From Modicisalibacter luteus DSM 23508 (GTDB lineage Bacteria > Pseudomonadota > Gammaproteobacteria > Pseudomonadales > Halomonadaceae), in the NCBI RefSeq assembly GCF_000378505.1, contig NZ_KB899990.1:248001-312000 (forward strand): a DNA stretch of 64,000 nt. The letters run 5' to 3'. The position numbers and the translations under genes were made by a program. Positions 38,752 to 52,637 of this stretch are shown piece after piece. Position 1 is the stretch's first letter, and every line of letters begins with the position of its first letter. The notes beneath the pieces were generated by a model. That model had not been told where the DNA came from. It ran no database searches and saw only the letters and a list, made by a program, of their open reading frames with translations.

Positions 38752-39462
38752 TTAGCCATCCGAAGCGGTTTTATGCGATGAAGTGGTTTCGCCAGTTTCA
38801 GTATTGCCCTCGGCGGCTTCTTTGGCACTGGCGGTGGTTTCAGCGATCAGCGATTCCTGAAGCCGTTGGGCGCCCTGAGCATCGACCAGTGGCTGGAAAT
38901 TGCTCAATGCCAGCGTCAATTCATTGCCGCCCGAGGCCACGAAGCGTAGCGATTCGATGAAGGCCCCACCCTTGACGGCAATTTTTTTGAGGGCGTCCTC
39001 GCTGCGGTCGCGAGGTAGCAATACCAGCTGCCAGTCTTCGCGCTCGCCTTCGAACAGCATGTGGTATCGCTCACGCAGGGTGGCGAGATCGCCCTGCAGA
39101 AGTCGAAACAGCAGGCGCGCAACCTGAGGTTCCTTGGGCAGGCCATCTGTAATCTCGCCCAGAGGAGAAAGGGAAAGAGCGGGTACGTCAGTGGCCAGTT
39201 CCGCAAACTGGCCAGCGACATCGAGCGTGACGATACGGGGCTGAGGCGAGACCCAGTGCCAGGCCAGCGATTGCGTCGGCGTGAACAGGATCTCGCCATC
39301 GGCGTGAACACGTATCTCAGCCTCGGGAAGCCAGCGACTCTGCTCGACCCGGCTCTGAAAGGCCGGCGTATCGCCCTGCCACGTTTGCCATTCTTCCGGT
39401 GTTACGGCCTGAGCAACAAGGGGCATCAGCACGAGAAGCAGGCCGCAAGTCAGTCGATTCAT
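38752..39462 (-). CDS. second LolA-like outer-membrane lipoprotein-carrier-related protein
   Basis: A 236-residue secreted protein with a signal peptide cleaved near AQAVTPEEW (about residue 19). From about residue 95 it aligns with the LolA-like protein at 46099-46665: LLFRLLQGDLATLRERYHMLFEGEREDWQLVLLPRD matches LLDLLGGDWQALEDRFHLELSGDGRGWQVRLAPKN, and FIESLRFVASGGNELTLALSNF matches YLNELTLHAANGDRLHIRLFD. The N-terminal half matches less closely (LFTPTQSLAWHWVSP versus VVWVLESP), and a Ser/Thr-rich tail is added. It follows the APE operon by 77 bases on the same strand. Confidence 0.72.
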   Translation of the reverse strand: MNRLTCGLLLVLMPLVAQAVTPEEWQTWQGDTPAFQSRVEQSRWLPEAEIRVHADGEILFTPTQSLAWHWVSPQPRIVTLDVAGQFAELATDVPALSLSPLGEITDGLPKEPQVARLLFRLLQGDLATLRERYHMLFEGEREDWQLVLLPRDRSEDALKKIAVKGGAFIESLRFVASGGNELTLALSNFQPLVDAQGAQRLQESLIAETTASAKEAAEGNTETGETTSSHKTASDG

Positions 39463-39539: not shown

Positions 39540-40265
39540 CTAGCACATCCCCCCATTGACGGCGATCACTTGGCGAGTGATGTAGGCGGCATCGCTGGAG
39601 CACAGGAAACTGACCGCGCCAGCGACTTCCTCACTGGTGCCGGTGCGCTGCATGGGGATCACCTTGAGCGCTTCCGCGCGGACCCGCTCGTCGGTCATGT
39701 CGGTGTCGATCATTCCCGGCGCCACGCAGTTGACCGTGATTCGACGCTTGGCGAGCTCCACCGCGAGCGCCTTTACGGCACCAATCAGGCCAGCCTTGGC
39801 GGCACTGTAGTTGACCTGGCCTCGGTTGCCCATAAGGCCCGAGACCGACGACATCACCACGATACGCCCTGGGGCGCGGCGGCGGATCATGGGCATGACC
39901 AGCGGCTTCACCACGTTGTAGAAGCCGTCGAGGTTGGTATGAATGACGCTGTCCCAGGCATCATCGGTCAGTGCGGGGAAAGCGCCGTCGGCGGTAATGC
40001 CGGCATTGCAGACGATACCGTAATAGGCGCCATGGTTGTCGGTGTCGGCCTCGAGCGCCTCATGTGCGGCGCGCCTGTCGGTCACGTCGAAGCATAAGAT
40101 ACGTGCCTGGCGTCCCAGAGCGCGAATCTCGCTTGCTACGCCCTCCGCCGCCTCGCGGCTACGCCGGCAGTGCAGCACGATATCGTAGCCGTCATGGGCC
40201 AGGCGCAGGGCGGTGGCGCGTCCGATGCCACGGCTCGATCCGGTAACCAGGATGGTGTCGGTCAT
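39540..40265 (-). CDS. apeQ: 3-ketoacyl-ACP reductase of the APE operon (ApeQ/FabG-like)
   Basis: A 241-residue short-chain dehydrogenase. NADP is bound through TGSSRGIGRA (residues 7-16), NAGIT is present, and the catalytic Ser and YSAAK (YxxxK) follow, with a 3-residue family ending typical of FabG. It reduces the beta-keto group of the growing polyene chain. Its ATG overlaps the dehydratase stop by 4 bases. It is the last gene of the coupled run. Confidence 0.9.
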   Translation of the reverse strand: MTDTILVTGSSRGIGRATALRLAHDGYDIVLHCRRSREAAEGVASEIRALGRQARILCFDVTDRRAAHEALEADTDNHGAYYGIVCNAGITADGAFPALTDDAWDSVIHTNLDGFYNVVKPLVMPMIRRRAPGRIVVMSSVSGLMGNRGQVNYSAAKAGLIGAVKALAVELAKRRITVNCVAPGMIDTDMTDERVRAEALKVIPMQRTGTSEEVAGAVSFLCSSDAAYITRQVIAVNGGMC

Positions 40266-40744
40266 GATGACGCTCGCGAAGTCGAAAGATTGTCAGGATG
40301 CGATGGCGTTGGCACGTAGATGGTCAGGCTGCCTTCGGCCAATGGGGTCGTGTCGTTCTCTATCACGCCACGAAACTGACCCAGCCCGTTGTCAGCCCGA
40401 AAATCGAGGCTGACCGATACCCGGTAAGGTTGTACCAGTGGGAACGCGTCGACAGCGGCCTCGAATCGCCGTGTGCCGACCAGAAAACCCACGGCGGGCG
40501 ACTCTCCACGTGTTGCGGCTTGCCAGCCAGCCCACGCCGCCACCGCTTGAGCCATCCACTCCAGGCCTACCCAGGCAGGAATGCTGCCGTCGATGCAGAA
40601 CAGATCCTGCGCTTCGGGCATCACATCGGCGACTAGATGTTCCTCGCCGACCTCGACGATACGATCGAGCAGGCACATTCCTTGGGCATGGGGAACGAAA
40701 GGTGCGATCGGGCAGGGCAGCTTGGGCAAGGTGAGGCGGGTCAT
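40262..40744 (-). CDS. apeP: hotdog-fold dehydratase of the APE operon (ApeP-like)
   Basis: A 160-residue FabZ/FabA-type protein with FVPHAQGMCLLDRI near the N-terminus and PAWVGLEWMAQAVAAWAGW, the typical ApeP region with catalytic Glu/His. It dehydrates the 3-hydroxyacyl intermediate to the conjugated enoyl chain. The 4-base overlaps at both ends show translational coupling with ketosynthase and reductase genes. Confidence 0.85.
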   Translation of the reverse strand: MTRLTLPKLPCPIAPFVPHAQGMCLLDRIVEVGEEHLVADVMPEAQDLFCIDGSIPAWVGLEWMAQAVAAWAGWQAATRGESPAVGFLVGTRRFEAAVDAFPLVQPYRVSVSLDFRADNGLGQFRGVIENDTTPLAEGSLTIYVPTPSHPDNLSTSRASS

Positions 40745-41925
40745 ACCATACGCCCCAACAGCAGAGCGGCATTGTTGCCGCCGAAAGCGAACGAGTTGCT
40801 CAATGCCAGGCGCGGCTTGGCATCGTCGGGCCTGGTGACCAGAGGTAATGGCGGCAATGCGGGGTCGTACTGCTCATCGTAGACGTGCAGGGGCAGTTGC
40901 TGGTAATGCAGGGCCAGCCAGCAAAAAGCGGCTTCCAGAGCGCCGGCCGCTCCCAGGGTATGGCCGGTAAGCGCCTTGGTGGAACTGCAGGGCGGCGCGG
41001 ATGCGAATAGCTCGTGGATGGCCCTGGCTTCCATGCTGTCGTTGTGCGGAGTGCCGGTACCGTGCAAATTGAGATAATCCACCTGGTCGGCCCTGCGTCC
41101 GGCCTGGCGCAGGGCCGCCTGCATCGCGGCCAAGGCACCGCTGCCGTCGGGGCGCGGGGCAGAGACGTGGTAGGCGTCCGCGCTTTCGCCGACGCCCTCG
41201 AGCTGAATGCCGCCGGGGTCACGGGTCATCACGAACAGGGCCGCGGCCTCGCCGAGGTTGATGCCGTCACGATTGGCAGAAAATGGCAGGCATGGATGAT
41301 CGCTGACCGCCTCGAGGCTGGCGAAGCCGTTGATCGTGAGTCGGCAGAGCGTATCGGCGCCGCCCGTGATTACCGCATCGCATTCGCCGGCCAGCAGCAG
41401 ACGGCGGGCGCTGGCCAAGGCACGGGCGCTGGAACTACAGGCTGTGGATAGCACATAGACGGGACCTTCCAACCCCAGTCGTTCAGCTACGAACCGTGCC
41501 GGATCACCGAGTTCCTGATGGGCGTAGCGAAAGTTTTCAGGCAACGGAGCGTCACGCCCGGTTAGCGCCAGGGCACGTTCGGTTTCGCCGATGCCCGACG
41601 TACTGGTGCCAATGACTACGCCGATCCGCGACCGGGGGTAGCGGCTCAAGACAGTCTTAAGGGTATCTCCCAAGCGTTCGAGCGCCGCTGCCAGCAGCCG
41701 GTTGTTGCGGCTGCGCTGATGGATCGGCCAGTCGCGGTCGTCGGGCAAATCGTTCAGGACGCTACCCAAAGGCAGGCGACGGCCAGGCGTGTAGGCATCG
41801 CTCACGCTCAGGCCGCGGCGACCCTCGAAAAGGGCGTCTGCAATGGTGTCGTGCGTATCACCCAGACTACAGACCACACCGGGAGATGACAGGCGACAGG
41901 GCATGTGGGGATGACGCTCGTTCAT
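40741..41925 (-). CDS. apeO: beta-ketoacyl-ACP synthase of the APE operon (ApeO-like)
   Basis: A 394-residue condensing enzyme with an intact catalytic set: C163 in STACSSSA, H288 in LHGTGTPHND and H322 in KALTGHTLGAAGA, with K317. It makes the polyene chain with malonyl-ACP and should pair with the chain-length factor encoded at 51835-52524. It overlaps both neighbours by 4 bases. It is the only ketosynthase with a full triad in the operon; the second one (ApeR) of related clusters is missing here. Confidence 0.88.
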   Translation of the reverse strand: MNERHPHMPCRLSSPGVVCSLGDTHDTIADALFEGRRGLSVSDAYTPGRRLPLGSVLNDLPDDRDWPIHQRSRNNRLLAAALERLGDTLKTVLSRYPRSRIGVVIGTSTSGIGETERALALTGRDAPLPENFRYAHQELGDPARFVAERLGLEGPVYVLSTACSSSARALASARRLLLAGECDAVITGGADTLCRLTINGFASLEAVSDHPCLPFSANRDGINLGEAAALFVMTRDPGGIQLEGVGESADAYHVSAPRPDGSGALAAMQAALRQAGRRADQVDYLNLHGTGTPHNDSMEARAIHELFASAPPCSSTKALTGHTLGAAGALEAAFCWLALHYQQLPLHVYDEQYDPALPPLPLVTRPDDAKPRLALSNSFAFGGNNAALLLGRMV

Positions 41926-42518
41926 GGCGCGGCCTCCTCGAGCGGGGTGATGCGCAAACGATACCGGCCCTGGCGGTCATCGAGCAGCACCTCCCGTGTG
42001 CTGCCAGCGCTTACCGAGGCCGGGGTGATTCGGGCGATGACCTTATCATGATGGCGGATGACACGGGCCCCGTCGCTGACGGTAATTGACCAGTCGCTGC
42101 CGGCAAAAGCGTCGCGTAACGCGGCGACCGGCCACAGGCTCCATTGCAGACGCGAGGCAAGCCAGTCGGCGGGCAGGGGGAGCTTTTCCTGCACCGTCTC
42201 CTGCGCCACGTCCCCGACGAGGTAACGGCTGCCCCCGGTATCGCTTACCAGCGTGACAAGGCGCTGGCCGTAAGGTGTCAGCAGTACAGCACGCAATTCA
42301 TGCTCAGCGATGCGAATCAGACCGATCAGTGTCTGTGGGGCCTGGCTGTCGTCGTCGGGCATGAAGGTCAAGCGACGCTTGAGGGTGGCGGTGGTAGGTA
42401 CGCTGTCGAATGTCGGCGATGGCGATACCGGCGGTGCGAGCGAACAGCCGGCCAGGCCTAGCGCAACCATACCGAGTACGCCCAGGCAGAGCCGCAAGAA
42501 GACATGCTTTCCGGTCAT
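41922..42518 (-). CDS. DUF3261 lipoprotein of the APE operon
   Basis: A 198-residue lipoprotein: signal peptide with lipobox LAGC at about residue 22-25 (GLAGCSLAPP), followed by a DUF3261 domain (TLIGLIRIAEHELRAVLLTPYGQRLVTL). Such lipoproteins are a standard part of aryl-polyene clusters, presumably helping deposit the pigment at the outer membrane with LolA-like and MMPL proteins. It overlaps both neighbours by 4 bases. Confidence 0.85.
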   Translation of the reverse strand: MTGKHVFLRLCLGVLGMVALGLAGCSLAPPVSPSPTFDSVPTTATLKRRLTFMPDDDSQAPQTLIGLIRIAEHELRAVLLTPYGQRLVTLVSDTGGSRYLVGDVAQETVQEKLPLPADWLASRLQWSLWPVAALRDAFAGSDWSITVSDGARVIRHHDKVIARITPASVSAGSTREVLLDDRQGRYRLRITPLEEAAP

Positions 42519-43780
42519 GGGTTTTCTCCCGGTACGGCCTGAGTGTGACCGCAGAGTTCGGCCAGTGTGGTCAGGCGCCTCTGGGCGCCGCTGACGAAGG
42601 GGTTAGCCGTGTCCCAGGCATAACCGGCCAGTACCGAGCTGATCATTCGCTTGATAGTGGCGGGATGCGCATCGTGAAAGATGATCGACGGCAAGCGACC
42701 GTCGTACCAGGCCTCCACGAAGGCGCGAAAGGTCTCGATGCCTTGGCGCAGGGGGCGCTCGAATTCATTGTGCCAGTCGATGGTGTCGCCGCGAAGCTGG
42801 CGCGCAACTAGTGGCGCCGCCTGGTGTGCTGAACGTAGGGCGATGGTGACACCGGATGAGAACACTGGGTCGAGGAACTCCCCGGCGTTGCCGAGCAGGG
42901 CATACCCCGGCCCATGAAGGCGGGACACGTCGGCTGAATAACCCTGTAGCGAGGCTACCGGACGTGTCGTGCGGGCCCCGCGGAGCAGCTTGCTAAAGCG
43001 GGGTTCGGCATCGATCAACTGCTGCCAGCGTCGCTCCGAATCGCCGCCCCCTGCGCTCAAGGCTTGCATACTGCCGACGACTCCCACCGAGGCTCGCCCA
43101 TGGGCGAAAGGGATCAGCCAGTACCATAGCGAGTCATCATCGGGATGGACGCCGATCAGGATTTTGTCACGATCGAAGGTCGGCTCACGAATCTGTTCCT
43201 CGACATGGGCGAACAAGGCCATGCGCGTCTCAAGGCGTGGGTCACGGCCGAGTCCGAGCAGGCGGGCCAGAACTCGGCCGTAGCCGCTGGCATCGAGTAC
43301 GAAACCTGCTGTCAGCGTCGTCTCTTGCCCACTCTCGTCGATGTACGTCAGGCTGGGGCGCTGTGGATCGGGGCGAAACGACGTGACCGTAACGCCGAAC
43401 GCGACCCGGGCGCCCTGAGCGGCGGCCGCCTCGATCAGGCGCTGGTCGAAGTCGGCGCGTTCGACCTGATAGGTGGTACCCCAACCGTCAGTGAACTTGT
43501 CGCGAAAGTCGATGACCGCCTCGTGATCGCGGCGGGTGAACACAGCGCCATTCTTGGGCTGGAATCCGCCCGCCTCGACGGCCGTCAGCAGGCCCGCATC
43601 GTCGAGGTAATGCATGCATTGGGGTAGCAGGCTCTCACCGATCGAAAAGCGTGGAAAATGACTGCGCTCGAGTACCTGAACCTTCAGGCCGCAGCGCACC
43701 AATAGCGCAGCGGCCATGGCCCCGGCAGGGCCGGCACCAATGACCGCCACGTCGGTGTCGACATCAATGTCAGATTTCAT
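42515..43780 (-). CDS. FAD-dependent oxidoreductase with flavin-halogenase signature
   Basis: A 421-residue flavoenzyme. FAD is bound by GAGPAG (residues 15-20), GESLLP (48-53) and a GNAGEFLDPVFSSGV stretch at 298-312. W219, W221, I223 and P224 (WYWLIP, DNA 43109-43126) fit the WxWxIP signature of flavin-dependent halogenases, and GExxxP-type GESLLP also fits. It could be a halogenase or a related reductase/hydroxylase. Start 43780 is used because the upstream open part is unlike the family; it overlaps the MMPL gene by 11 bases. Halogenated polyene pigments (xanthomonadins) have such genes nearby. Confidence 0.82.
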   Translation of the reverse strand: MKSDIDVDTDVAVIGAGPAGAMAAALLVRCGLKVQVLERSHFPRFSIGESLLPQCMHYLDDAGLLTAVEAGGFQPKNGAVFTRRDHEAVIDFRDKFTDGWGTTYQVERADFDQRLIEAAAAQGARVAFGVTVTSFRPDPQRPSLTYIDESGQETTLTAGFVLDASGYGRVLARLLGLGRDPRLETRMALFAHVEEQIREPTFDRDKILIGVHPDDDSLWYWLIPFAHGRASVGVVGSMQALSAGGGDSERRWQQLIDAEPRFSKLLRGARTTRPVASLQGYSADVSRLHGPGYALLGNAGEFLDPVFSSGVTIALRSAHQAAPLVARQLRGDTIDWHNEFERPLRQGIETFRAFVEAWYDGRLPSIIFHDAHPATIKRMISSVLAGYAWDTANPFVSGAQRRLTTLAELCGHTQAVPGENP

Positions 43781-46112
43781 CTTGTCTTTCCAGGTGGCTG
43801 TCAAAAGAGCTATGGCAGGGCCGCACCCAGGGAACCAGCAGCCATACCAGGGCCAGGCCGACAAGACAGGACAGCCCAAGATAGTGCAGGGCGGGCGTGG
43901 CACTGAAAGCCAGCAGCCCGAAGGCCAGCAGGCTGGTAAGGGTCGACAGGCTGATGGCCAGCCAAGTCTCGGCGCGATGCGCGTGTTCGACGCTGAAGAT
44001 ACCGGCATCGAGGCCAATGCCGAGCACTAGCAGCAGCCCCAACTGGCTGAAGACATTGAGCGGAATGCCGGCCAGGGCATACGCCGCAAGCACCCCGAGA
44101 ATGGCGCCCAAGGGCGGGGTCAGCACGCGCCATGTTCGGCGACGATAGCGCCAGGCCAGTAGTAAGGATAGCCCGGCCACTGCGGCAATCACCCACCAGG
44201 CGATGTGCGTGCGTAGCTCACCCAGCAGACCGGAAAGACGCTCGACGCGGTCGACGTAGGAGATGCCTTCGTGCGTTTGCGCCAGCCTCTCGAGCCGCGG
44301 CACGACGTTTGCCTCAACATCGGCAAGCGGCAGCATGGCAGCAAAGCGGACAGGCGTATCTGAAACACTGCCGAGCCACAGGCGGGCCTGGCCTTGTCCG
44401 GCCGACGTTGCCAGCCAGGTCGCCACATCGAGGATGGGTACGTTCTGCAGTTGCTGACGTGCCTTTTCGGCTAGATGAGCAGAAAGCCCGGCGCGCTCGA
44501 ACAACGTCGATAGCGGGCCGCCATAAAGCTGGCGAACCTGAGCCAGATTGGCCTGCTGAACGTCAGGCGGAGGTACGCTGTCGGCCAGGTTGGTGTAACG
44601 CAGGGAGATGTCATCTTCCTTCCACTGCTCCAGGTTGTCGCCGAGCTCGGCCAGGCGGACCAACACCTCGGCCTCGCTGGGGGCAGTGACCAGAAAGTAG
44701 CGATCACCGGTGTTGCTTCCCATCAGTCGCTGCACATGACGCTCTTGTTCGAGTAACCAGGCAGGCGACGGGTTGAGTAGACGTAGGCTGTCATCGGCCT
44801 TGAGTTGCCAGCCGACGATGCCGGTAAGTGCCAGCGCGAGGCTTATTGCCAGAGCGGGAGCCAGACGCCTGCGCGGCATCGTGAGCTGCCACAGGCGCTG
44901 AGCCAGACGGCCTGTGAATGGATGCACAGGTGTGGTCAGGCGTGGCAACCATAGCACCACGGTAAGCCATGCCCCCAGCAGGCCCATGGCGGCGAACATG
45001 GCCATCTGGCGCAATCCCGGCAATGGTGTCAGCGCCTGGGCGAGATAGGCGAGCAGGCTGGAGACAAGGCCCAGCGTCAAGCCCGGCAGCAGCGGGCGCA
45101 AACGAAAGTGCACGCTCTGAATGGTGCGATGACTCTGTACATGCAGTGCATAATCGATGGCGATACCGATCAGGCTGGCCCCGAAGGCCAGCGTCAACAG
45201 GTGCAACTGGCCGAACACGAGCAGCGTAAGAGGCAGCGCGAACAGCACCCCGCCAGCTAGCGGCAACAGCATATAGGCAAGCACGCGTACCGAGCGGAAC
45301 ACGAACCATAGGATGGCCACCAAGCCGGTCAGCGCGCCCAGGCCAATAGTGGTGATTTCCTGGCGTGCCTGATGTGCCCCGGCGGCGGCATGAAAGACTA
45401 GCCCTGAGCGCAGCAAGGAAACATCGGGATGACGATGCTCGAAACTGGCAATGGCATCTGTCAGGGCTTGCTGTGCCTCCAGATCGTAAGGGGAGCGAGC
45501 CAGTTGGCCGACCAGCAGCGCATGGGTCCGATTGTCATTAGTGAGGGTCAGCAAGCCATTGCTAGGCTGTATGGGGCTTTTATCAAGCTGTCCCAGCCAG
45601 CGGTCGAGTAGTCCGAAGGGGTCGACCACCGGTTGGGGTTGGCCGGTCGGTGCAAAGAGGTCACGCAGAGCCGAGTCGACCAATGCCTGACCACCATCGT
45701 CGATGATCGCCTGGCGTAGCGAGGGGGCGAGGAGGCGGTAGCGGTACTTGCCGAGATCGTCTCGCGGGTCCTGATCGGCAAGGTCAGTGTCGCGCCAGTC
45801 GAGACGAGCCAGCCAGGGCTGGTCTGCATTATCGTTGGCCGTGGTCAGGGCTTGCACCAACGCCCGGGTGTCGGCGCTCAGGGTGGGTGAGCTGAACAGC
45901 AGGACGAAGCGGTCTTCGAAAGACTGGCCCAGTTGCATGTCGGCACGCTCGATCAGCGGCGACTGGCGATCCTCGGGCAGCATGGCCGTCAGGCGCGTAT
46001 CGGCGGGCAGGCCGTCACGCAATAACGCGGCCAGCCCCAGGGCGCAGGTCAGCAGCACGCCGCCCCATAACCAGGCTCCTAGCCACGCCAAGGTCCGCTC
46101 ACGGTGAGGCAT
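43770..46112 (-). CDS. MMPL/RND-family exporter of the APE operon
   Basis: A 780-residue RND-superfamily transporter of the MMPL kind, with two blocks of hydrophobic segments (about 15-35 and 250-420; then 430-450 and 640-780) and two large periplasmic loops. The block near GVLFALPLTLLVFGQLHL and IGIAIDYALHVQSHR is the MMPL core. It is expected to move the polyene lipid across the inner membrane or towards LolA. The ATG at 46112 overlaps the LolA-like gene by 14 bases. Confidence 0.87.
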   Translation of the reverse strand: MPHRERTLAWLGAWLWGGVLLTCALGLAALLRDGLPADTRLTAMLPEDRQSPLIERADMQLGQSFEDRFVLLFSSPTLSADTRALVQALTTANDNADQPWLARLDWRDTDLADQDPRDDLGKYRYRLLAPSLRQAIIDDGGQALVDSALRDLFAPTGQPQPVVDPFGLLDRWLGQLDKSPIQPSNGLLTLTNDNRTHALLVGQLARSPYDLEAQQALTDAIASFEHRHPDVSLLRSGLVFHAAAGAHQARQEITTIGLGALTGLVAILWFVFRSVRVLAYMLLPLAGGVLFALPLTLLVFGQLHLLTLAFGASLIGIAIDYALHVQSHRTIQSVHFRLRPLLPGLTLGLVSSLLAYLAQALTPLPGLRQMAMFAAMGLLGAWLTVVLWLPRLTTPVHPFTGRLAQRLWQLTMPRRRLAPALAISLALALTGIVGWQLKADDSLRLLNPSPAWLLEQERHVQRLMGSNTGDRYFLVTAPSEAEVLVRLAELGDNLEQWKEDDISLRYTNLADSVPPPDVQQANLAQVRQLYGGPLSTLFERAGLSAHLAEKARQQLQNVPILDVATWLATSAGQGQARLWLGSVSDTPVRFAAMLPLADVEANVVPRLERLAQTHEGISYVDRVERLSGLLGELRTHIAWWVIAAVAGLSLLLAWRYRRRTWRVLTPPLGAILGVLAAYALAGIPLNVFSQLGLLLVLGIGLDAGIFSVEHAHRAETWLAISLSTLTSLLAFGLLAFSATPALHYLGLSCLVGLALVWLLVPWVRPCHSSFDSHLERQDEI

Positions 46113-46665
46113 CCACGCCCTCCGACGGGGGATGCTGATCGAATAACCGGATGTGCAAGCGGTCGCCATTGGCGGCATGCAGTGTCAGTTCGTTCAGGTA
46201 TTGGCCGCCTTCCAGGCGAATCAGGGATAGCCTGTCCCGCAGCGCATCGTTCTTGGGGGCCAGACGGACCTGCCAGCCCCGTCCATCGCCGCTCAGCTCA
46301 AGGTGGAAGCGGTCTTCCAGTGCCTGCCAGTCGCCCCCCAGCAGGTCGAGCAGCAAGGCTGCCACCTGGTCCCGGCCGCGCCGGTCTCCGCCCAGCGTCT
46401 CATCGATATCCGCCGCGGAGTCGGGCGTGAACTCCAGGCGATCCTGAATGGGCGACTCCAGCACCCAGACGACGCGTTCATCGCGCCGGTAGCGGAAGTG
46501 ACCACGGCTGGTCAGCTGAGCGTCCAGATCGGCCAGATGACGTCGTTGCTCAAAGCGCCCGTCAAGCGCTTGAGTACGGTTCAGGCGGGTCTGAAGGTCA
46601 TCCAGGGTGAAGGCCAGCGCGTTTCCTGGCAGGCAGAGCAGCAGCAGAAATAGTATACGAATCAT
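46099..46665 (-). CDS. LolA-like periplasmic carrier of the APE operon
   Basis: A 188-residue secreted protein with signal peptide cleaved near ALAFTLDD (about residue 18). It has the LolA beta-sheet pattern: FEQRRHLADLDAQLTSRGHFRYRRDERVVWVLESP, then the mid and C-terminal blocks shared with 38752-39462. LolA-like proteins in APE clusters are thought to carry the lipidated polyene to the outer membrane. A 67-base gap separates it from the acyltransferase upstream. Confidence 0.87.
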   Translation of the reverse strand: MIRILFLLLLCLPGNALAFTLDDLQTRLNRTQALDGRFEQRRHLADLDAQLTSRGHFRYRRDERVVWVLESPIQDRLEFTPDSAADIDETLGGDRRGRDQVAALLLDLLGGDWQALEDRFHLELSGDGRGWQVRLAPKNDALRDRLSLIRLEGGQYLNELTLHAANGDRLHIRLFDQHPPSEGVDASP

Positions 46666-46732
46666 CGGTGATGCCTCGTGTTGCCTCGATCCATCTCAGA
46701 AGCGTAAAGCCCTTCGGCGATAGCGGGCAGGG

Positions 46733-47686
46733 TCAGCCATCGTGTCGATCATCGGTCAACCAGAAGGGAAAGAAGTTGAACCATTGCAACGGGTAGCGCC
46801 GGCATTGGTCGGTGAGCCACTCCACATAACGCTGCATGGCATCTTCGCGCCAAGTGTCACGCTCGGCGCGGCGCAGGTGAGTCGTGTCGTCAAAAGGGCG
46901 GAACTCGATATAGTGGGATTCGCCTTCTCGCAGACAGCTCAATGTATAGACGGGACAACGCAGCAAGGCCGCCAGCCAGAACGGACCTTCGGGAAACGGC
47001 GCGGGGGCGCCAAGGAAGTCGAGGTGACATACCCGTCCATCCTCGCTGACCGGCACACGGTCGGCGGCAATCACCACGAATCCGCCTGCATTGATGCGTT
47101 CGGCCAGGCGCATGGCCGTGGCCGGGGTGATTTCGCTGACTTCGATGATCTCGGGGCCGCGACGCAGCGTGGTACGGTCCAGCATCTGATTGAACTTGCG
47201 AGCGTTGCGGGTGTGCATCAGTTGGGTAACATGAAAATCTTCGCGTGTATCGCTCATGGCGCTGCAGATTTCCAGGTTGCCGATGTGCGAGACCAGCATC
47301 AGACCACCTCGGCCGCTGCGTATAGCCTGGTCAAGGCAGGCGCGATCCTCGGGCGTGAAGCGTATGTCGAGAGGTATTCCACTCCAGGCATCGACCTTGT
47401 CCATAAGCGACTGGCCAAAAGCCATGAAATGGCGCAGGCCCAGCAGGAATGCGCCACGTAGCGGACGCCCGGCATGCAGTGGCCAGATACGCTCGAGATA
47501 ACGGCGTGACGCCCGGCGTGGCAGCGCGCGTGAGATGTAGTAGTAAGCGATCACCAAACCCAGCGCCAGGCGAAATGGCAGACGTCCGAGGCGACGGCGA
47601 ATCCAGACCATGGCGCGCATGCCAGCCACGGTGCCCGACTCCTGAATACGCGCCCAGTGCTGCGGGTGATCGGAATAGGTGGTCAT
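46733..47686 (-). CDS. lipid A biosynthesis-type acyltransferase (LpxL/HtrB family) of the APE operon
   Basis: A 317-residue membrane acyltransferase with an N-terminal hydrophobic segment (about residues 35-52) and the HX4E motif HIGNLE near 130. The C-terminal half keeps the LpxL-like pattern PVYTLSCLREGESHYIEF. It probably acylates the polyene head or its glycosylated form. The ATG at 47686 overlaps the glycosyltransferase stop by 4 bases. Confidence 0.83.
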   Translation of the reverse strand: MTTYSDHPQHWARIQESGTVAGMRAMVWIRRRLGRLPFRLALGLVIAYYYISRALPRRASRRYLERIWPLHAGRPLRGAFLLGLRHFMAFGQSLMDKVDAWSGIPLDIRFTPEDRACLDQAIRSGRGGLMLVSHIGNLEICSAMSDTREDFHVTQLMHTRNARKFNQMLDRTTLRRGPEIIEVSEITPATAMRLAERINAGGFVVIAADRVPVSEDGRVCHLDFLGAPAPFPEGPFWLAALLRCPVYTLSCLREGESHYIEFRPFDDTTHLRRAERDTWREDAMQRYVEWLTDQCRRYPLQWFNFFPFWLTDDRHDG

Positions 47687-48444
47687 TGATTCTTCCTTGA
47701 TGAGTGCCGCCTCGATAGTAGGCGGGGCAAGCGTCGAAGCATGCCGAAGAACAGCCGGGCGTGCATCATTGCCAGCTGGGTATTGTCGCGCCACAGCGCA
47801 AAGTGCGATATGCCATCCAATGGGTAGTGAACGCGTACCGGCAGGTTGCGTACCGCTAGACCGGCCCATAGCCAGCGCACCGGAAGTTCGGTGTCGAACT
47901 GCATGCGGTTGCCGCAACCGTGACGACTCACCAGGCGATTGGTCTCAAGGACCGGATAGAGTTTTACGCCGCACATGGTATCGCGCAGCGTGAATGACAG
48001 GGTATTGAGCCAGACCAGCAGATGCGTGGCGTAACGGGCATAGAAGCGATGCCGGGGAACGCTGGCATCGAAACGCGGATAGCCGATACGCAGCTCCCTG
48101 CTCCTGGCGCTAAGCCCGTCCAGAAATTGGGGCAAATCTTCGGGGGCGTGCTGGCCATCGGCATCCACCTGCAGGGCGTGGGTAAAGCCCAGGCGCTCGG
48201 CTTCGCGAAGGCCGGCCTTGACCGCTGCGCCCTTGCCGCGATTGCCCGGCAGGCGGATCAGGGTTACGTCTGCAGCCTCGGCCAACGCGTCGAGAACGGT
48301 GGCGCATTCATGATCGCTGCCGTCATCGACGAGCAGCAGGGGCACGCCCAGGCGGCGCGCGCCCTCGCAAGTCCATTCGATGGCCGCTGCGTGATTGTAG
48401 ACGGGGATGAGTACGCATGGCCGGGCCGGGGCGTCATGAGGCAT
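47683..48444 (-). CDS. family 2 glycosyltransferase of the APE operon
   Basis: A 253-residue GT2 enzyme: LIPVYNHAAAIEWT, LLLVDDGSDHE and LQVDADGQHAPEDLP with the DxD-like metal site. The start at 48444 is chosen because the upstream open part is unlike the family and the 11-base overlap with the ligase gene fits the operon style. It probably adds a sugar or phosphosugar to the polyene lipid. Confidence 0.87.
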   Translation of the reverse strand: MPHDAPARPCVLIPVYNHAAAIEWTCEGARRLGVPLLLVDDGSDHECATVLDALAEAADVTLIRLPGNRGKGAAVKAGLREAERLGFTHALQVDADGQHAPEDLPQFLDGLSARSRELRIGYPRFDASVPRHRFYARYATHLLVWLNTLSFTLRDTMCGVKLYPVLETNRLVSRHGCGNRMQFDTELPVRWLWAGLAVRNLPVRVHYPLDGISHFALWRDNTQLAMMHARLFFGMLRRLPRLLSRRHSSRKNQ

Positions 48445-50191
48445 CGCCGATCTCCGTAGCGACGTAATGCATCCTGCCACTGGCATGACAGCCGCGCTGT
48501 CCCGACAGATCGATGACCAGGCGGCCGCCCTCGGCATCTGGTCGCCATGTCAGGCTCAGCCAAACGCGATCGCCGGGCAGCAATAACTGTGGGAATTTGA
48601 CCCGCTCGAGACGATGGAAGCTGCCGTCCAGGCCCAAATGCCGGCGCGCCAGTGAAGCAGCCCACTGTAGTGTGACCACGCCCGGAACCACCGGCTGCCC
48701 GGGGAAGTGCCCCTGACAGTAGGCAAGCCGCTCGGGCACTTCGAGTGCCACCCGACACGCCTGGGCACCGTTGTTTTCCACACCTAGCCAACGTGGCAGT
48801 CGTCGATCCTGCAAGTCGGCGAACAGCAGTGCGACAATTTCGGCCGACAGCTTGCCCTGGGCATTGGTCGGCCAGGTCTCAACGAAGCGCCAGTAACGTG
48901 GAATGACGGTCGGCTCAAAGGCGGACAGAAGTCGAGCACGCAGGGCCTGGATCAGCTCGCGGCGTGTCGCATGGTCATGCGGGATGCACTCGGCGGCGAG
49001 CTGCACGATGGCACCTAATCGGTTGTCACGGGTCGCCAAGGGCAGGGTGCGTGCCTGAAGTACGCCGTGGCAGGTTTCCAGGCTCCGGTCCATGCCGGTC
49101 AGCGACAGGCGCTTGCCACCTACCTTGGCGATACGGTCGCTGCGACCGAGCAGGCGAAAGCCGTCGGCGACCGGGGCGATGCGGTCGGCTTGGCATTCCC
49201 AGGCGCTCGGGTCGGCCAGAAAAGGCGAGCGAAGCCACAGGCGGCCCTCGGCATCGTTGCGGATTTCAATGCCGGGCAGGGGCGCCCAATGATCATTGAA
49301 TTGCTGGTCGCGCCAGGCTATCCCGCCGGTTTCCGAGCTACCGTAGATTTCGCTGACACCAATGCCTAGCACGGTGCGTGCATGGGCACTGGCGGCGGCA
49401 CTCAGAGGGGCACCGGAGGAGTGGATGCGGGCCAGTCGCTCACGGGCGGGGTGCCAGTCGAGTTCGGCGGGCAGGCGCTCGAGAGGTGGTGGTGCGCTGA
49501 TCAACACGGCACTACGTGGCGCCTGGATATCATCCTCGGAGACGTTGTCCAGCCGCTGCAGCCAAGCGCTGAGCGTCTCTGGATAACGGCACGCGCGCGT
49601 GGCCATTGGCGCGCCTTCACACAGTGGGCGAAGGATGGCGAACAGTAACCCATAGATGTGCTGATGGCTGACCTGACTAATGACCAGCCGGCCGTCTAGT
49701 GGCCACAATGCCAAGTGGGCTGCCAGTTCGGCGTCAAGCTGGGCAAAGCTCTTGTCGAGCTGTTTCGGGTCGCCGGTCGACCCGGAAGTGAACAATGAGA
49801 CGGCAACCCGGTCCGGGCGAAGATCGCCCCAGCGAGGCGCTTGGTCCACATCTGCCAAGAGCCCGCCAGTGACCTCGCCCAGCCGTGCAGTGGCGAGGCG
49901 GGAAAGGGTATCGAGCGTCTCTGGCCGGTCATCGGCCGGAAGCACGGCACTGTCGCCGCGCTCCCAGAGGGCGATCAGGGCAGCGGCAAACGCGACGGGG
50001 TCGCTGTGGTACAACAGCCAGCGCTGTCCTGGAGGCGCCAGCTTGTCCAGCCGACGCTGCCAGGCACCGATTCGCTCACGGAATCCGGCCCAACTGATAC
50101 GGGATCCGCCGAAATCGCCATTCCAGCCCATGGTCCCCTGAGAGGGCGCATGACGCCAGGGGGCGTCAACCAGTCGCCTCTGCCGCGTCAA
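48434..50191 (-). CDS. fused AMP-ligase (ApeH-like) and hotdog dehydratase (ApeI-like)
   Basis: A 585-residue two-part protein. Residues 1-460 are an acyl-adenylating ligase (SLFTSGSTGDPK, EIYGSSETGGIAW, GRSDRIAKVGGKR) that should activate an aryl acid and load it on the ACP. The last ~100 residues are a FabA/FabZ-like dehydratase (GHFPGQPVVPGV at about 494-505). In E. coli-type clusters ApeH and ApeI are separate. The TTG start at 50191 is chosen because AGGAG lies 6 bases upstream and TTGA overlaps the stop of the preceding gene. Confidence 0.87.
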   Translation of the reverse strand: MTRQRRLVDAPWRHAPSQGTMGWNGDFGGSRISWAGFRERIGAWQRRLDKLAPPGQRWLLYHSDPVAFAAALIALWERGDSAVLPADDRPETLDTLSRLATARLGEVTGGLLADVDQAPRWGDLRPDRVAVSLFTSGSTGDPKQLDKSFAQLDAELAAHLALWPLDGRLVISQVSHQHIYGLLFAILRPLCEGAPMATRACRYPETLSAWLQRLDNVSEDDIQAPRSAVLISAPPPLERLPAELDWHPARERLARIHSSGAPLSAAASAHARTVLGIGVSEIYGSSETGGIAWRDQQFNDHWAPLPGIEIRNDAEGRLWLRSPFLADPSAWECQADRIAPVADGFRLLGRSDRIAKVGGKRLSLTGMDRSLETCHGVLQARTLPLATRDNRLGAIVQLAAECIPHDHATRRELIQALRARLLSAFEPTVIPRYWRFVETWPTNAQGKLSAEIVALLFADLQDRRLPRWLGVENNGAQACRVALEVPERLAYCQGHFPGQPVVPGVVTLQWAASLARRHLGLDGSFHRLERVKFPQLLLPGDRVWLSLTWRPDAEGGRLVIDLSGQRGCHASGRMHYVATEIGDAS

Positions 50192-50745
50192 GACCGTCTC
50201 CTTATTCGTTGTCGAACACACCACTCGATGGCGAACAGCAGGGCGCATAGCCCGTAGGCGATCCCGCCGTTATACAAGGACCAGGTGGCCAGGTCGGCAT
50301 ACAGTGCGGTCCAGAGGGCCGCGGCGCCATTGCACAGGAAGAAGACGCACCAGACCTGGGTGACCCGCCTGGTGTAGGCCACGCCGTGCGGGGGGAGGTC
50401 CGGCTCCTGGCGTCGAGCCAGTCGCTCGATCATGCTCTGCGGCTGGCGCAAGCTCCAGGCGAAGACGCTCAGCAAGGTCGCATTGACGATGACCGGCCAA
50501 GCACGTACGCCCAGCTCGGCATGGCCGAGCTGGGTCGTCAAGAGTGCCGCCAGCCCCAACAATACACTCCAGTGCTTACGGCCCGCAGGCAATCGCCAGC
50601 AGGCCAGTGCCACTGCCGCCACGAGCAGAGGCCATGGGCCGATGAGAGGTACCAGCAAAAGCGCCAATAGCGGCCAGGCCAGCCCCAGCAGGCCGAGTAG
50701 CATCGGGCCACGGGACAGGGGGGGAGCACGACGCAGGGAATGCAT
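50188..50745 (-). CDS. COG4648 membrane protein of the APE operon
   Basis: A membrane protein of about 185 residues with six hydrophobic segments (about 14-50, 60-78, 85-100, 135-155 and 160-175) typical of the COG4648 family found in every APE cluster. The ATG at 50745 is used; GTG at 50766 is possible. The stop overlaps the ligase start (TTGA). The role is unknown but its presence marks the pathway. Confidence 0.78.
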   Translation of the reverse strand: MHSLRRAPPLSRGPMLLGLLGLAWPLLALLLVPLIGPWPLLVAAVALACWRLPAGRKHWSVLLGLAALLTTQLGHAELGVRAWPVIVNATLLSVFAWSLRQPQSMIERLARRQEPDLPPHGVAYTRRVTQVWCVFFLCNGAAALWTALYADLATWSLYNGGIAYGLCALLFAIEWCVRQRIRRRS

Positions 50746-50776
50746 GACAGTCTCTAGGCTCCGCACCGGACAGCGG

Positions 50777-51040
50777 TTACTTGACGCGCCGCGCTTCCAC
50801 TAGCGCCGCGAGGCTTTTTAGATTGGCGAAATGTCGGCGAGTTTCCTCGCTGTCGGCCTCGAGCTTGATGCCATACGTCTTTTGCAGTGCAAGACCCAGC
50901 TCCAGGGCATCGATGGAATCGAGCCCCAGGCCCTCGACGAACAGCGGCTCATCCGGATCGATATCCTCCGGGGTGACGTCCTCAAGTTCCAAGGTATCGA
51001 TGATCAGCTGCTTAAGCTCAGTTTCCAGCGCGTTCGTCAT
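50777..51040 (-). CDS. acyl carrier protein of the APE operon
   Basis: An 87-residue acyl carrier protein. The phosphopantetheine Ser is in GLGLDSIDALELG. The start at 51040 (MTNALETELKQ) is preferred because AAGGA lies about 11 bases before it; the ATG at 51052 would have no spacing. It is the only ACP in the operon, whereas E. coli-type clusters have two (ApeE, ApeF). Confidence 0.88.
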   Translation of the reverse strand: MTNALETELKQLIIDTLELEDVTPEDIDPDEPLFVEGLGLDSIDALELGLALQKTYGIKLEADSEETRRHFANLKSLAALVEARRVK

Positions 51041-51054
51041 CGGCGGTTTCATCC

Positions 51055-51819
51055 TTACACGGCGTTAATGAAATGGATTTCGAGCCGGCGGTTAAGTTCA
51101 TCCACTGCCGGCATTGACATGTTCTCGCTGTCGTCGTGCTGCACGAGCCTTCCCACATCGAAGGTGAAACTCGGGCGACGCGGCGGCACACGATACCAAG
51201 GGCTGCCCTTGAGCAAGGTCGGCGGCTCGCAGCGAATGCGCACCGGAATGATGGGTGCGCGGCTCATGGCAGCGATCATGGCGCCGTTACGGCGCAGGCG
51301 GATCGGTTGGCCCGGTATCGATCTCGTTCCCTCGGGGAACAGAATTACCGACTGGCCATTTTCCAGCGCTTCACTGGCGGCTGCAATCACGCGACGGGGA
51401 TTGGGATCGGCAATGAAGCCTGCCGCGCGGATAACGCTGCGTGTCACGAAGTGGTTCGCCAAGCCGCCCTTGGCCACACAGATGGCATCGGGAGCAGTGG
51501 CGAGCAGGAACAGGGCATCGAGTAGTGTCGGGTGGTTGGCCAGCACCAGGCTGCCCGGCCGCTGCAGCCGTTCGGCATGAATGAAGCGATAATCGATCAG
51601 GCGCAGCCCCTTGAGCAGGGTGATGAAGCCCCGACATGTCGCTTTGACGCTACGCCGGACACGACGCTGGGCCAGGGCGCGATTACCGCTGCACAGACGG
51701 GCCAGGGGAGCAATGACAAGCCCAACCCCCAGCGCGCAGAGAGCAAACAGTGTAAAGCCGAGGGCGGTGGCGAAGTAGCGCCAACTGCGGTCAATACCGG
51801 CCGCGAGTATCACTAGCAT
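51055..51819 (-). CDS. 1-acylglycerol-3-phosphate-type acyltransferase of the APE operon
   Basis: A 254-residue membrane acyltransferase of the PlsC family: NHPTLLD is the HX4D motif, FPEGTRS is the second signature, and two hydrophobic segments at about 18-38 and 150-165 anchor it. It lies between the chain-length factor and ACP genes, 15 bases after the former. It likely attaches the polyene chain to a lipid acceptor. Confidence 0.88.
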   Translation of the reverse strand: MLVILAAGIDRSWRYFATALGFTLFALCALGVGLVIAPLARLCSGNRALAQRRVRRSVKATCRGFITLLKGLRLIDYRFIHAERLQRPGSLVLANHPTLLDALFLLATAPDAICVAKGGLANHFVTRSVIRAAGFIADPNPRRVIAAASEALENGQSVILFPEGTRSIPGQPIRLRRNGAMIAAMSRAPIIPVRIRCEPPTLLKGSPWYRVPPRRPSFTFDVGRLVQHDDSENMSMPAVDELNRRLEIHFINAV

Positions 51820-51834
51820 GGGCAGCGTCCGGTC

Positions 51835-52524
51835 TCAGGGCGATAAGGTCCAGGTCAGCCGCCGTGAGGGGCAGACCAGCGGTGCCTCATCCAGCAGCCA
51901 GGCAATGAGGTCGCTGGGCTGGGGAGAGCGGGCTTGTCCGGCTTGAGAGGCGTCGCAGGGCCGCGTATGTATTTCCCTTCCGCCACTCGCCGATAGGAGC
52001 AGGGCAACCACAGCCAATTCGGTCGGCTCGGTAACATGAGCGGCAAAGCGCTCCGGCACCGGCGCATCGCTGAACACGGCAATGACGTCACGCTCGCCTT
52101 CCGCGAAATAGCCGCGTGTTTCGCTGAACAGGGCGGCAACTTCGGCACCTCCGGCGGCGATCGCTTGAAGTGAGTGACGATTGCCACTGGCAATGGAGTG
52201 TACGCCGAGGGTGGCATTGTGAACCGACATGCCGAAGCGGGCAGGCGAGAGCGGCTCCTGCTCGGCCAATGCATACAGCATTTCCAGTGTGCGATCGCCA
52301 TCGCCATGGCGCGAGGCGTAGATCAGGACTCGCCTCGCCTCGGGATCCAGCTCACTGAGCATGTCGCAGACGACTCGGCCGGAAGCATTGAGGCGGCGGC
52401 GCAGCATGGCAGGCACCGAGGCGCCACGTGGCTGAGGGTCCACCGACAGACGGGAGTCGGCATGCGGGGCGCGGCCCGGGTGCCACGCCCGCCAATCCTG
52501 AAGAGTTATCGAGACTGTCGTCAT
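51835..52524 (-). CDS. apeC: chain-length factor-type ketoacyl synthase (ApeC-like)
   Basis: A 229-residue protein related to the N-terminal half of ketosynthases (Ketoacyl-synt_2 type; YASRHGDGDRTLEML, LSPARFGMSVHNATLGV). It lacks an active-site Cys, which marks it as the chain-length partner of the ketosynthase at 40741-41925. Start 52524 follows GGAAACGGAACG. It is the first gene of the operon. Confidence 0.83.
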   Translation of the reverse strand: MTTVSITLQDWRAWHPGRAPHADSRLSVDPQPRGASVPAMLRRRLNASGRVVCDMLSELDPEARRVLIYASRHGDGDRTLEMLYALAEQEPLSPARFGMSVHNATLGVHSIASGNRHSLQAIAAGGAEVAALFSETRGYFAEGERDVIAVFSDAPVPERFAAHVTEPTELAVVALLLSASGGREIHTRPCDASQAGQARSPQPSDLIAWLLDEAPLVCPSRRLTWTLSP

Positions 52525-52540
52525 CAAGCGTTCCGTTTCC

Positions 52541-52565
52541 GGTCGCTTCAAGGCATGAAGCGACC
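52541..52565. promoter_or_regulatory. perfect palindrome/hairpin just upstream of the APE operon start
   Basis: Perfect 10-base arms GGTCGCTTCA / TGAAGCGACC with a 5-base loop, 16 bases before the ApeC-like ATG and 73 bases after the hexR stop. It may end hexR transcripts, or act as an operator or 5' leader stem for the pigment operon. No T-run follows on either side. Confidence 0.5.
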
Positions 52566-52637
52566 CATGAGCGTAACGGGAAACCCTACGCGTATGGCCA
52601 TGCCTGAATGGCATCGGCGATTTTTCGCGTCAGGGTA

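Follow-up and report, generated by a model that had tools for sequence, protein, structure and literature searches.

A halogenase-family flavoenzyme in the aryl-polyene operon of Modicisalibacter luteus and its putative role in tailoring the pigment head group

Halogenated aryl polyenes (APEs) are already known from xanthomonads, where the halogen is bromine, and among the flexirubins, some of which carry chlorine. Xanthomonas pigments have been reported with 0 to 2 bromines, and a halogenase gene is present in the clusters of two Xanthomonas species; excerpts of the same paper describe a Lysobacter cluster without a halogenase gene and its non-brominated pigment, and a figure legend places halogenase genes near the ketosynthase (KS) pair in other genomes (PMC3691225). 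The flexirubins of Bacteroidota vary in ring chlorination and methylation, according to part of PMC3992019. Excerpts of PMC8253772 give 4-hydroxybenzoate from chorismate as the APE starter of Escherichia coli and ApeB as the likely methyltransferase of the head group, and for xanthomonadin they name halogenation as the tailoring. APE clusters with a gene annotated 'halogenase' were known before: PMC3691225 and PMC3949708 already show such genes. Here we describe a flavoenzyme gene in a 64,000-nucleotide stretch of Modicisalibacter luteus DSM 23508 (contig NZ_KB899990.1, positions 248,001 to 312,000), hereafter the window. The gene lies at 42515..43780 on the minus strand, inside an APE operon, and its product, P0001, almost certainly belongs to the flavin-dependent halogenase family, judging from sequence profiles and the predicted fold. 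We put at about 0.62 the probability that P0001 is an APE-clade halogenase acting on the 4-hydroxyphenyl head group of the pigment in the cell; the pigment may then carry chlorine or bromine. The analysis itself supplies the family membership, the motifs, the predicted fold, the operon position, the near-complete linkage to APE genes in the Halomonadaceae, and an APE operon without the gene.

Family membership and active-site residues

Read from 43780 to 42515, the gene encodes 421 amino acids without an internal stop, and the plus strand of the same interval is interrupted by stops. The original prediction, made from the sequence alone, had placed a 421-residue flavoprotein here without naming a strand, and the minus-strand reading confirms it. 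The three motifs it pointed to are all present, GAGPAG from residue 15, GESLLP from residue 48 and WYWLIP at residues 219-224 as claimed (W219, W221, I223, P224). P0001 is an APE-clade flavin-dependent halogenase-like protein with GxGxxG at 15-20, GES at 48-50, Lys 76 (K76, in FQPKNGAVF) at the position aligned with the halogenase active-site lysine, and GNAGEFLDPVFSSG at 297-310, the tunnel motif Fx.Px.Sx.G being FLDPVFSSG (residues 302-310).

The PF04820 (Trp_halogenase) profile gave 75.6 bits on P0001, with a cut-off of 21, followed by FAD_binding_3 with 71.8 bits, and it matched 21/21 members of an alignment, A1, at a threshold of 0.001. Among PDB sequences the best match was 3nix, a Cytophaga 'flavoprotein/dehydrogenase' (E 5.3e-101), and after it came Mpy16, ChlB4, PltA, FasV (8zop), CndH, CmlS, Bmp2 and RadH. 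When the 21 sequences of A1 were used as a profile against the PDB sequences, 3nix scored 488 bits, 13 halogenase chains (10 proteins) followed with 230 to 101 bits, and the geranylgeranyl reductase 3oz2 came next with 66 bits. With the AlphaFold2 model of P0001 (mean predicted local distance difference test 90.6, predicted template modelling (TM) score 0.91), Foldseek placed 3nix at rank 1 (TM 0.93), halogenases at ranks 7-38 (PltA, ChlB4, Mpy16, FasV, RadH, Bmp2, CmlS, CndH, CtcP and PltM) and 4-hydroxybenzoate hydroxylase first at rank 39 (TM about 0.7), among the best 50 of 1974 rows. PHROGs gave weak matches only, one of them named tryptophan halogenase, at 26.5 bits. It seems very improbable that P0001 is a geranylgeranyl-reductase-like protein or another oxidoreductase saturating, desaturating or epoxidising the polyene chain. 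The reductase subfamily model TIGR02032 does give 109 bits, though under its cut-off of 158.8, and membership in that subfamily was rejected on this score; the solved reductase falls below all 13 halogenase chains, and P0001 has all the halogenase motifs.

Motif columns were counted on 61 APE-clade sequences, namely P0001 and 60 loci 41-84% identical to it (20 from a named scan, 35 from locus listings and 5 from plasmids); they include one identical pair, L035 from a genome of the same genus (G019) and L003 from Halomonas sp. EAR18. The glycines G15, G17 and G20 of GxGxxG, a motif that is not halogenase-specific, are kept in 60/60 sequences covering it. W219, W221, I223 and P224 are invariant in 61/61, as are F302, P305, S308 and G310; with the PF04820 score, this speaks against a chance resemblance in the WxWxIP stretch. 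Position 76 is Lys in 60/60 covering sequences (the called open reading frame (ORF) of L059 begins after that position and was not counted). Aligned on K76 are the lysines of FPKKFGAAW (Mpy16, PltA), FPKKYGAAW (ChlB4), FQRKYGGSL (FasV) and FQQKFGAKF (3nix), and the equivalent lysine in CndH, CmlS, RadH and a Bmp2 mutant was found via the Streptomyces protein L077, whose lysine aligns with K76. This lysine is described as a conserved, crucial halogenase residue in sections of PMC8407142 and PMC7336383, and the former names WxWxIP and Fx.Px.Sx.G as halogenase motifs. The three columns discriminate as far as the single negative control goes, a LodB-family maturase relative under its own NCBIfam cut-off: it has no lysine at the K76 position, WWYTAI for WxWxIP, and Ser for Phe in the tunnel motif (SVDPLSSQG). 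Catalytic residues that stay invariant at 41-84% identity argue against lost activity. Two of the checks proposed with the original prediction, the PF04820 search and the alignment of the conserved lysine, came out in its favour, and a best match to a geranylgeranyl reductase, or to a hydroxylase without halogenase residues, did not arise.

Part of the evidence weighs against a halogenase function. Among the best 25 of 126 NCBIfam families no model reached its cut-off on P0001, halogenase models included, and the CmlS-type model (NF033113) gave 140.7 bits against a cut-off of 900. The MalA-type halogenases 5wgr-5wgv scored 52-53 bits with the A1 profile, under the geranylgeranyl reductase. Excerpts of PMC12871659 advise the use of motifs over bit scores and mention that some monooxygenases weakly match its general halogenase profile. 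The halogenase reading of the original prediction is thus upheld by the family profile, the nearest assigned solved relatives, the lysine, both motifs and the tree described below, and is not upheld by any curated NCBIfam halogenase model at its cut-off.

Residue 298 also belongs on the opposing side, being Asn (G-N-A) in 61/61 clade sequences and in 3nix, and Asp (GD) at the equivalent position in 13/13 enzymes of the lower identity band described below, in L077 and in nine halogenase fragments. This change from GD to GN sets the clade apart from the halogenases compared, and it could fit a halogenase-derived flavin monooxygenase, one that would convert the 4-hydroxyphenyl head group to 3,4-dihydroxyphenyl. 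QhpG, a halogenase-like flavoprotein, dihydroxylates peptidyl tryptophan, and W181 and W183 line its re-face channel (PMC7876137, in excerpts). P0001 matches the QhpG monooxygenase model (NF049967) weakly, with 115.5 bits against a cut-off of 240, and 4-hydroxybenzoate hydroxylase shares its fold. However, we consider a hydroxylase quite unlikely: the complete WxWxIP has been suggested to prevent monooxygenation (PMC8407142 and PMC12871659, in part), K76 is kept throughout the clade and missing in the LodB-like relative, the 13 halogenase chains and the halogenase fold ranks precede any hydroxylase, and the precursor is the common source of the head-group hydroxyl, as stated in part of PMC8253772. 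Membership of P0001 in the QhpG/LodB group was rejected on the scores below cut-offs and on the residues missing in the single LodB-like control; the QhpG model had no match across 114 genomes, the control genomes being without a match too.

The operon and the proposed reaction

The start of the P0001 gene overlaps by 11 bases the end of an MMPL/RND-type exporter gene directly upstream (ApeM-like, 43770..46178), and its stop overlaps by 4 bases the start of a DUF3261 lipoprotein gene (ApeN-like, 41922..42518, PF11659). Because its frame overlaps both neighbours, the gene is placed inside the APE operon, as the original prediction had it. The exporter had no Pfam match at 0.001 and is named from its position and from annotated equivalents, the same-position genes being annotated 'transporter' (L078) and 'MMPL family transporter' (L114). 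All genes of the operon are on the minus strand. After the lipoprotein follow a beta-ketoacyl-acyl carrier protein (ACP) synthase (ApeO-like, 40741..41925), an ApeP-like dehydratase (40262..40744, PF22817) and a FabG-like ketoreductase (KR; ApeQ-like, 39540..40265). On the other side of the exporter lie a LolA-like carrier (ApeL-like, 46099..46665, PF19574/PF03548), a lipid A acyltransferase-type protein (46733..47917, PF03279, a mechanical ORF whose true start is probably further in), a family 2 glycosyltransferase (47683..48537, PF00535, also a mechanical ORF) and an AMP-binding ligase fused to an ApeI-like dehydratase (48434..50248, PF00501 and PF22818). They are followed by a membrane protein in the ApeG position (50188..50766), which is without a Pfam match and has homologues at the equivalent place in other loci, an acyl carrier protein (50777..51052, PF00550), an acyltransferase (ApeD-like, 51055..51819, PF01553) and a chain-length-factor-like ketosynthase (ApeC-like, 51835..52614, PF13723). 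Ketosynthase, chain-length factor, ACP, ketoreductase, dehydratases, aryl-ACP ligase and exporter are thus all found together. No second ketosynthase, second ACP, thioesterase or ammonia-lyase was recognised in the window operon (39540-52614, minus strand), unlike in the Pseudoalteromonas cluster L073, which has all four. After the ketoreductase, at the operon end, there is a second, weak LolA_3-like protein (38752-39462, minus strand; 20.9 bits against a cut-off of 23).

The starter unit of the window operon is probably 4-hydroxybenzoate from chorismate, by analogy with E. coli, because neither an aromatic ammonia-lyase nor a XanB2-type chorismatase was matched in the source genome (4.53 Mb, 42 contigs). 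The ammonia-lyase search matched 5/14 control genomes, and some relatives carry an ammonia-lyase within their APE operon; the XanB2-type search (TIGR04444, at 1e-15) was without a control match, all its matches being below the family cut-off.

We infer the halogenation chemistry, the ring position, the form of the substrate and the choice of halide as follows. A separate flavin reductase would supply FADH2 to P0001, and the source genome encodes a flavin reductase domain at another place. Bound FADH2 and O2 would give a flavin C4a-hydroperoxide that oxidises chloride or bromide to hypohalous acid, which would pass down the Fx.Px.Sx.G tunnel to Lys76, while WxWxIP would hold the substrate off the flavin. 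The activated ring carbon beside the phenol hydroxyl of the 4-hydroxyphenyl head (C3, perhaps C3 and C5) would then be halogenated, on an ACP-bound 4-hydroxybenzoyl starter or on the growing or finished polyene. The halogen would thereby take the tailoring role that the ApeB methyl group fills in E. coli-type clusters.

Linkage to aryl-polyene genes and the ApeB methyltransferase

A chain-length factor was found in 75/141 Halomonadaceae genomes, and in 74 of these 75 the flavoenzyme shares its contig, at a distance of 5.7 to 11.7 kb. Two genomes (G142, G144) have the flavoenzyme, yet are not among the chain-length-factor matches listed. One genome of the same genus, G091 (L141), has an APE operon with eleven recognised genes and no flavoenzyme match; its gap between MMPL and KS genes is about the room of DUF3261, which was not itself recognised. 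Since this operon persists without the flavoenzyme, the gene is not needed for the core operon, as would be expected of a tailoring step, and the genomic context suggests a tailoring enzyme. Barring unrecognised parts, the flavoenzyme alone among the compared genes is missing from G091, which makes it a natural comparison strain.

The same genome speaks for the idea that P0001 is a halogenase by ancestry whose host makes no halogenated pigment in practice, the enzyme being bromide-only, redundant or directed to another substrate, for example a diffusible phenol. The APE cluster of Azoarcus BH72 holds arcA, a 'halogenase' gene, yet arcuflavin is C41H52O4, a nonbrominated aryl-heptaene (PMC3949708, in excerpts), which also speaks against pigment halogenation by P0001. 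In our own reading this formula accounts for an ester, one free phenol and one methoxy group, with no extra ring hydroxyl left, and ArcA probably belongs to the other, lower-band lineage. The original prediction was right that halogenated polyenes occur in xanthomonads, and the Xanthomonas range includes pigments with zero bromine. We still regard this alternative as unlikely. The catalytic residues are invariant across the clade, and the overlapping reading frames in the operon together with the 74/75 linkage favour the pigment as the substrate. No clade member with a demonstrated activity or product was found, which is a further point against head-group halogenation, and literature on aryl polyenes and Halomonas announced no halogenated halophile pigment in titles and abstract starts, most subscription journals being outside the coverage.

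Where the flavoenzyme occurs, ApeB-type methyltransferases seem to be missing. We inspected 40 flavoenzyme neighbourhoods, the window's included, mostly about 10 kb on each side and some less. MMPL adjoins the flavoenzyme in 33/40 (the others are L019, L075, L094, L097, L105, L106 and L107), and an ApeB-type methyltransferase was found in 0/40, although genes farther away would escape this count. In the E. coli APE cluster (L114), which carries ApeB, MMPL is directly followed by DUF3261 with nothing between. Among 17 methyltransferase loci (L114 and 16 others, 11 of the 16 with MMPL and KS) none has the APE-clade flavoenzyme and one (L129) has a lower-band flavoenzyme; MMPL adjoins DUF3261 in all five in which both were recognised (L114, L125, L127, L134, L136).

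At the level of genomes, an ApeB-type match at 1e-10 was present in 25, and the 17 with E <= 1e-70 were counted. The eight weaker ones were dropped (G272, G345, G269, G415, G492, G470, G463, G363); in G463 and G363 the weak match lies 13-14 kb from a lower-band flavoenzyme. In a set of 21 chain-length-factor genomes, 13 had the flavoenzyme only, 1 both, 6 the methyltransferase only and 1 neither (p = 0.00085), but 12 genomes in which XanB2 or a lower-band flavoenzyme occurs are left out of this set, an exclusion decided on once the data had been seen. With all 33 genomes the counts become 13/1/13/6 and the exclusivity is not significant (p = 0.195). The p values are indicative only because the genomes are related. 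In the sole genome with both genes, G312, the methyltransferase does not share a contig with the flavoenzyme, and a KR-like match is all that was recognised near it (L128).

The non-significant full count is joined by two further findings that count against a halogen as the cap. Five Kushneria loci (L010, L011, L012, L013, L021) have the flavoenzyme together with a different small methyltransferase; this methyltransferase-like protein (14338-14937 in L010) sits after the ketoreductase, and is over the Methyltransf_11 cut-off in L010 and just under it in L013. The Bacteroidota locus L076, outside the 40, carries, about 7 kb from the flavoenzyme, a domain annotated as a methyltransferase. No ApeB match was found in L076, and no Kushneria-type small methyltransferase gene in the window. 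It is a tentative proposal, for which we would give somewhat less than even odds, that ApeB methylation and halogenation by this clade are interchangeable caps at one ring position in the 4-hydroxybenzoate or coumarate branch, and that Halomonadaceae and many other proteobacteria display halogenated outer-membrane polyene lipids.

Two flavoenzyme lineages and comparison with known systems

Flavoenzyme matches in 369 genomes of the class fell into two bands of identity to P0001, an upper band of 43-57% (16 places and the window's own) and a lower band of 27-37% (40 places in 39 genomes). A XanB2-type chorismatase lies within 3 kb in 20/40 places of the lower band and 0/16 of the upper, where all XanB2-type matches are below the model cut-off and short contigs may hide neighbours. 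Halogenase-like proteins beside XanB2-type chorismatases occur in many gammaproteobacterial families (L060-L072, L090-L093). In the Azoarcus cluster arcA stands next to arcB (XanB2), as described in part of PMC3949708, which is the order of the lower-band flavoenzyme and XanB2-type genes. From gene order, not from their own sequences, we infer that Azoarcus ArcA and the Xanthomonas gene fall in this lower-band XAN group.

The tree was built from 59 sequences, made up of 35 APE-clade rows (out of 61), 13/13 fetched lower-band rows, L077, nine PDB fragments and one outgroup. It was made by a quick method, with the outgroup, Bmp2, RadH and CmlS on long branches. The Shimodaira-Hasegawa-like approximate likelihood ratio test (SH-aLRT) gave 99 for the lower band and 99 for the APE clade with 3nix, which is placed among the halogenases; PltA/Mpy16/ChlB4 and Bmp2 join the APE clade at 88. 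On these sequence comparisons the clade of P0001 is a distinct, APE-specific one with its own GN flavin-site signature. Two divergent members at 43-44% identity, L106 and L107 (G273, G388), are without recognisable APE genes and lie beside an ORF of about 446 amino acids; their substrate may differ.

The original prediction had found a halide-rich habitat attractive as an argument. It is weak, since the same clade occurs in plasmid records of soil Cupriavidus campinensis and Acinetobacter junii, and the habitat as an explanation of the gene was set aside as unsupported. Two other records of the plasmid collection, H14 and H16, are labelled Neisseria gonorrhoeae, are chromosome-sized (about 2.17 Mb) and have the flavoenzyme match in two pieces.

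If the clade halogenates, this chemistry would reach the pigments of a halophile family as well as those of further proteobacteria, groups for which halogenated APE products are not known. If the swap of the ring cap is true, it would mean that a halogenase clade with a GN signature makes natural organohalogens of a class that is widespread and has gone unrecognised. The old 'halogenase' annotation in APE clusters, of which no assay appears in the excerpts consulted, becomes directly testable, as related strains exist that carry the gene or, in one case, lack it, and other strains have ApeB instead. In addition, a halophile enzyme that halogenates carrier-protein-bound phenols could serve as a salt-tolerant biocatalyst. 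What we propose as new here is the distinct APE clade with its own flavin-site signature and the swap with ApeB.

Compared with known systems, P0001 is closest to 3nix of Cytophaga hutchinsonii, with which it shares the clade, 42% identity, the lysine, WxWxIP, FLDPxFSSG and GN for GD; 3nix differs in coming from Bacteroidota and was deposited merely as a 'flavoprotein/dehydrogenase'. PltA, Mpy16 and ChlB4 are halogenases that act on carrier-protein-bound pyrrole or 6-methylsalicylate. In sequence and in fold they rank with the best of the solved relatives of assigned function, and they have the same lysine and motifs, but are 26-29% identical to P0001, form a separate clade, carry GD and use other substrates. 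The xanthomonadin-type 'halogenases' are likewise halogenase-family enzymes in APE-like clusters with all motifs present, whereas they are 27-37% identical, separate in the tree, GD in place of GN, and have XanB2 nearby; the view of P0001 as the same enzyme as the xanthomonadin halogenase was rejected on the separate clade and on the source genome having no XanB2-type match. ApeB of the E. coli cluster appears to fill the same head-group tailoring role in the alternative cluster type, although it is an unrelated protein at a different place in the cluster and adds a methyl group, not a halogen.

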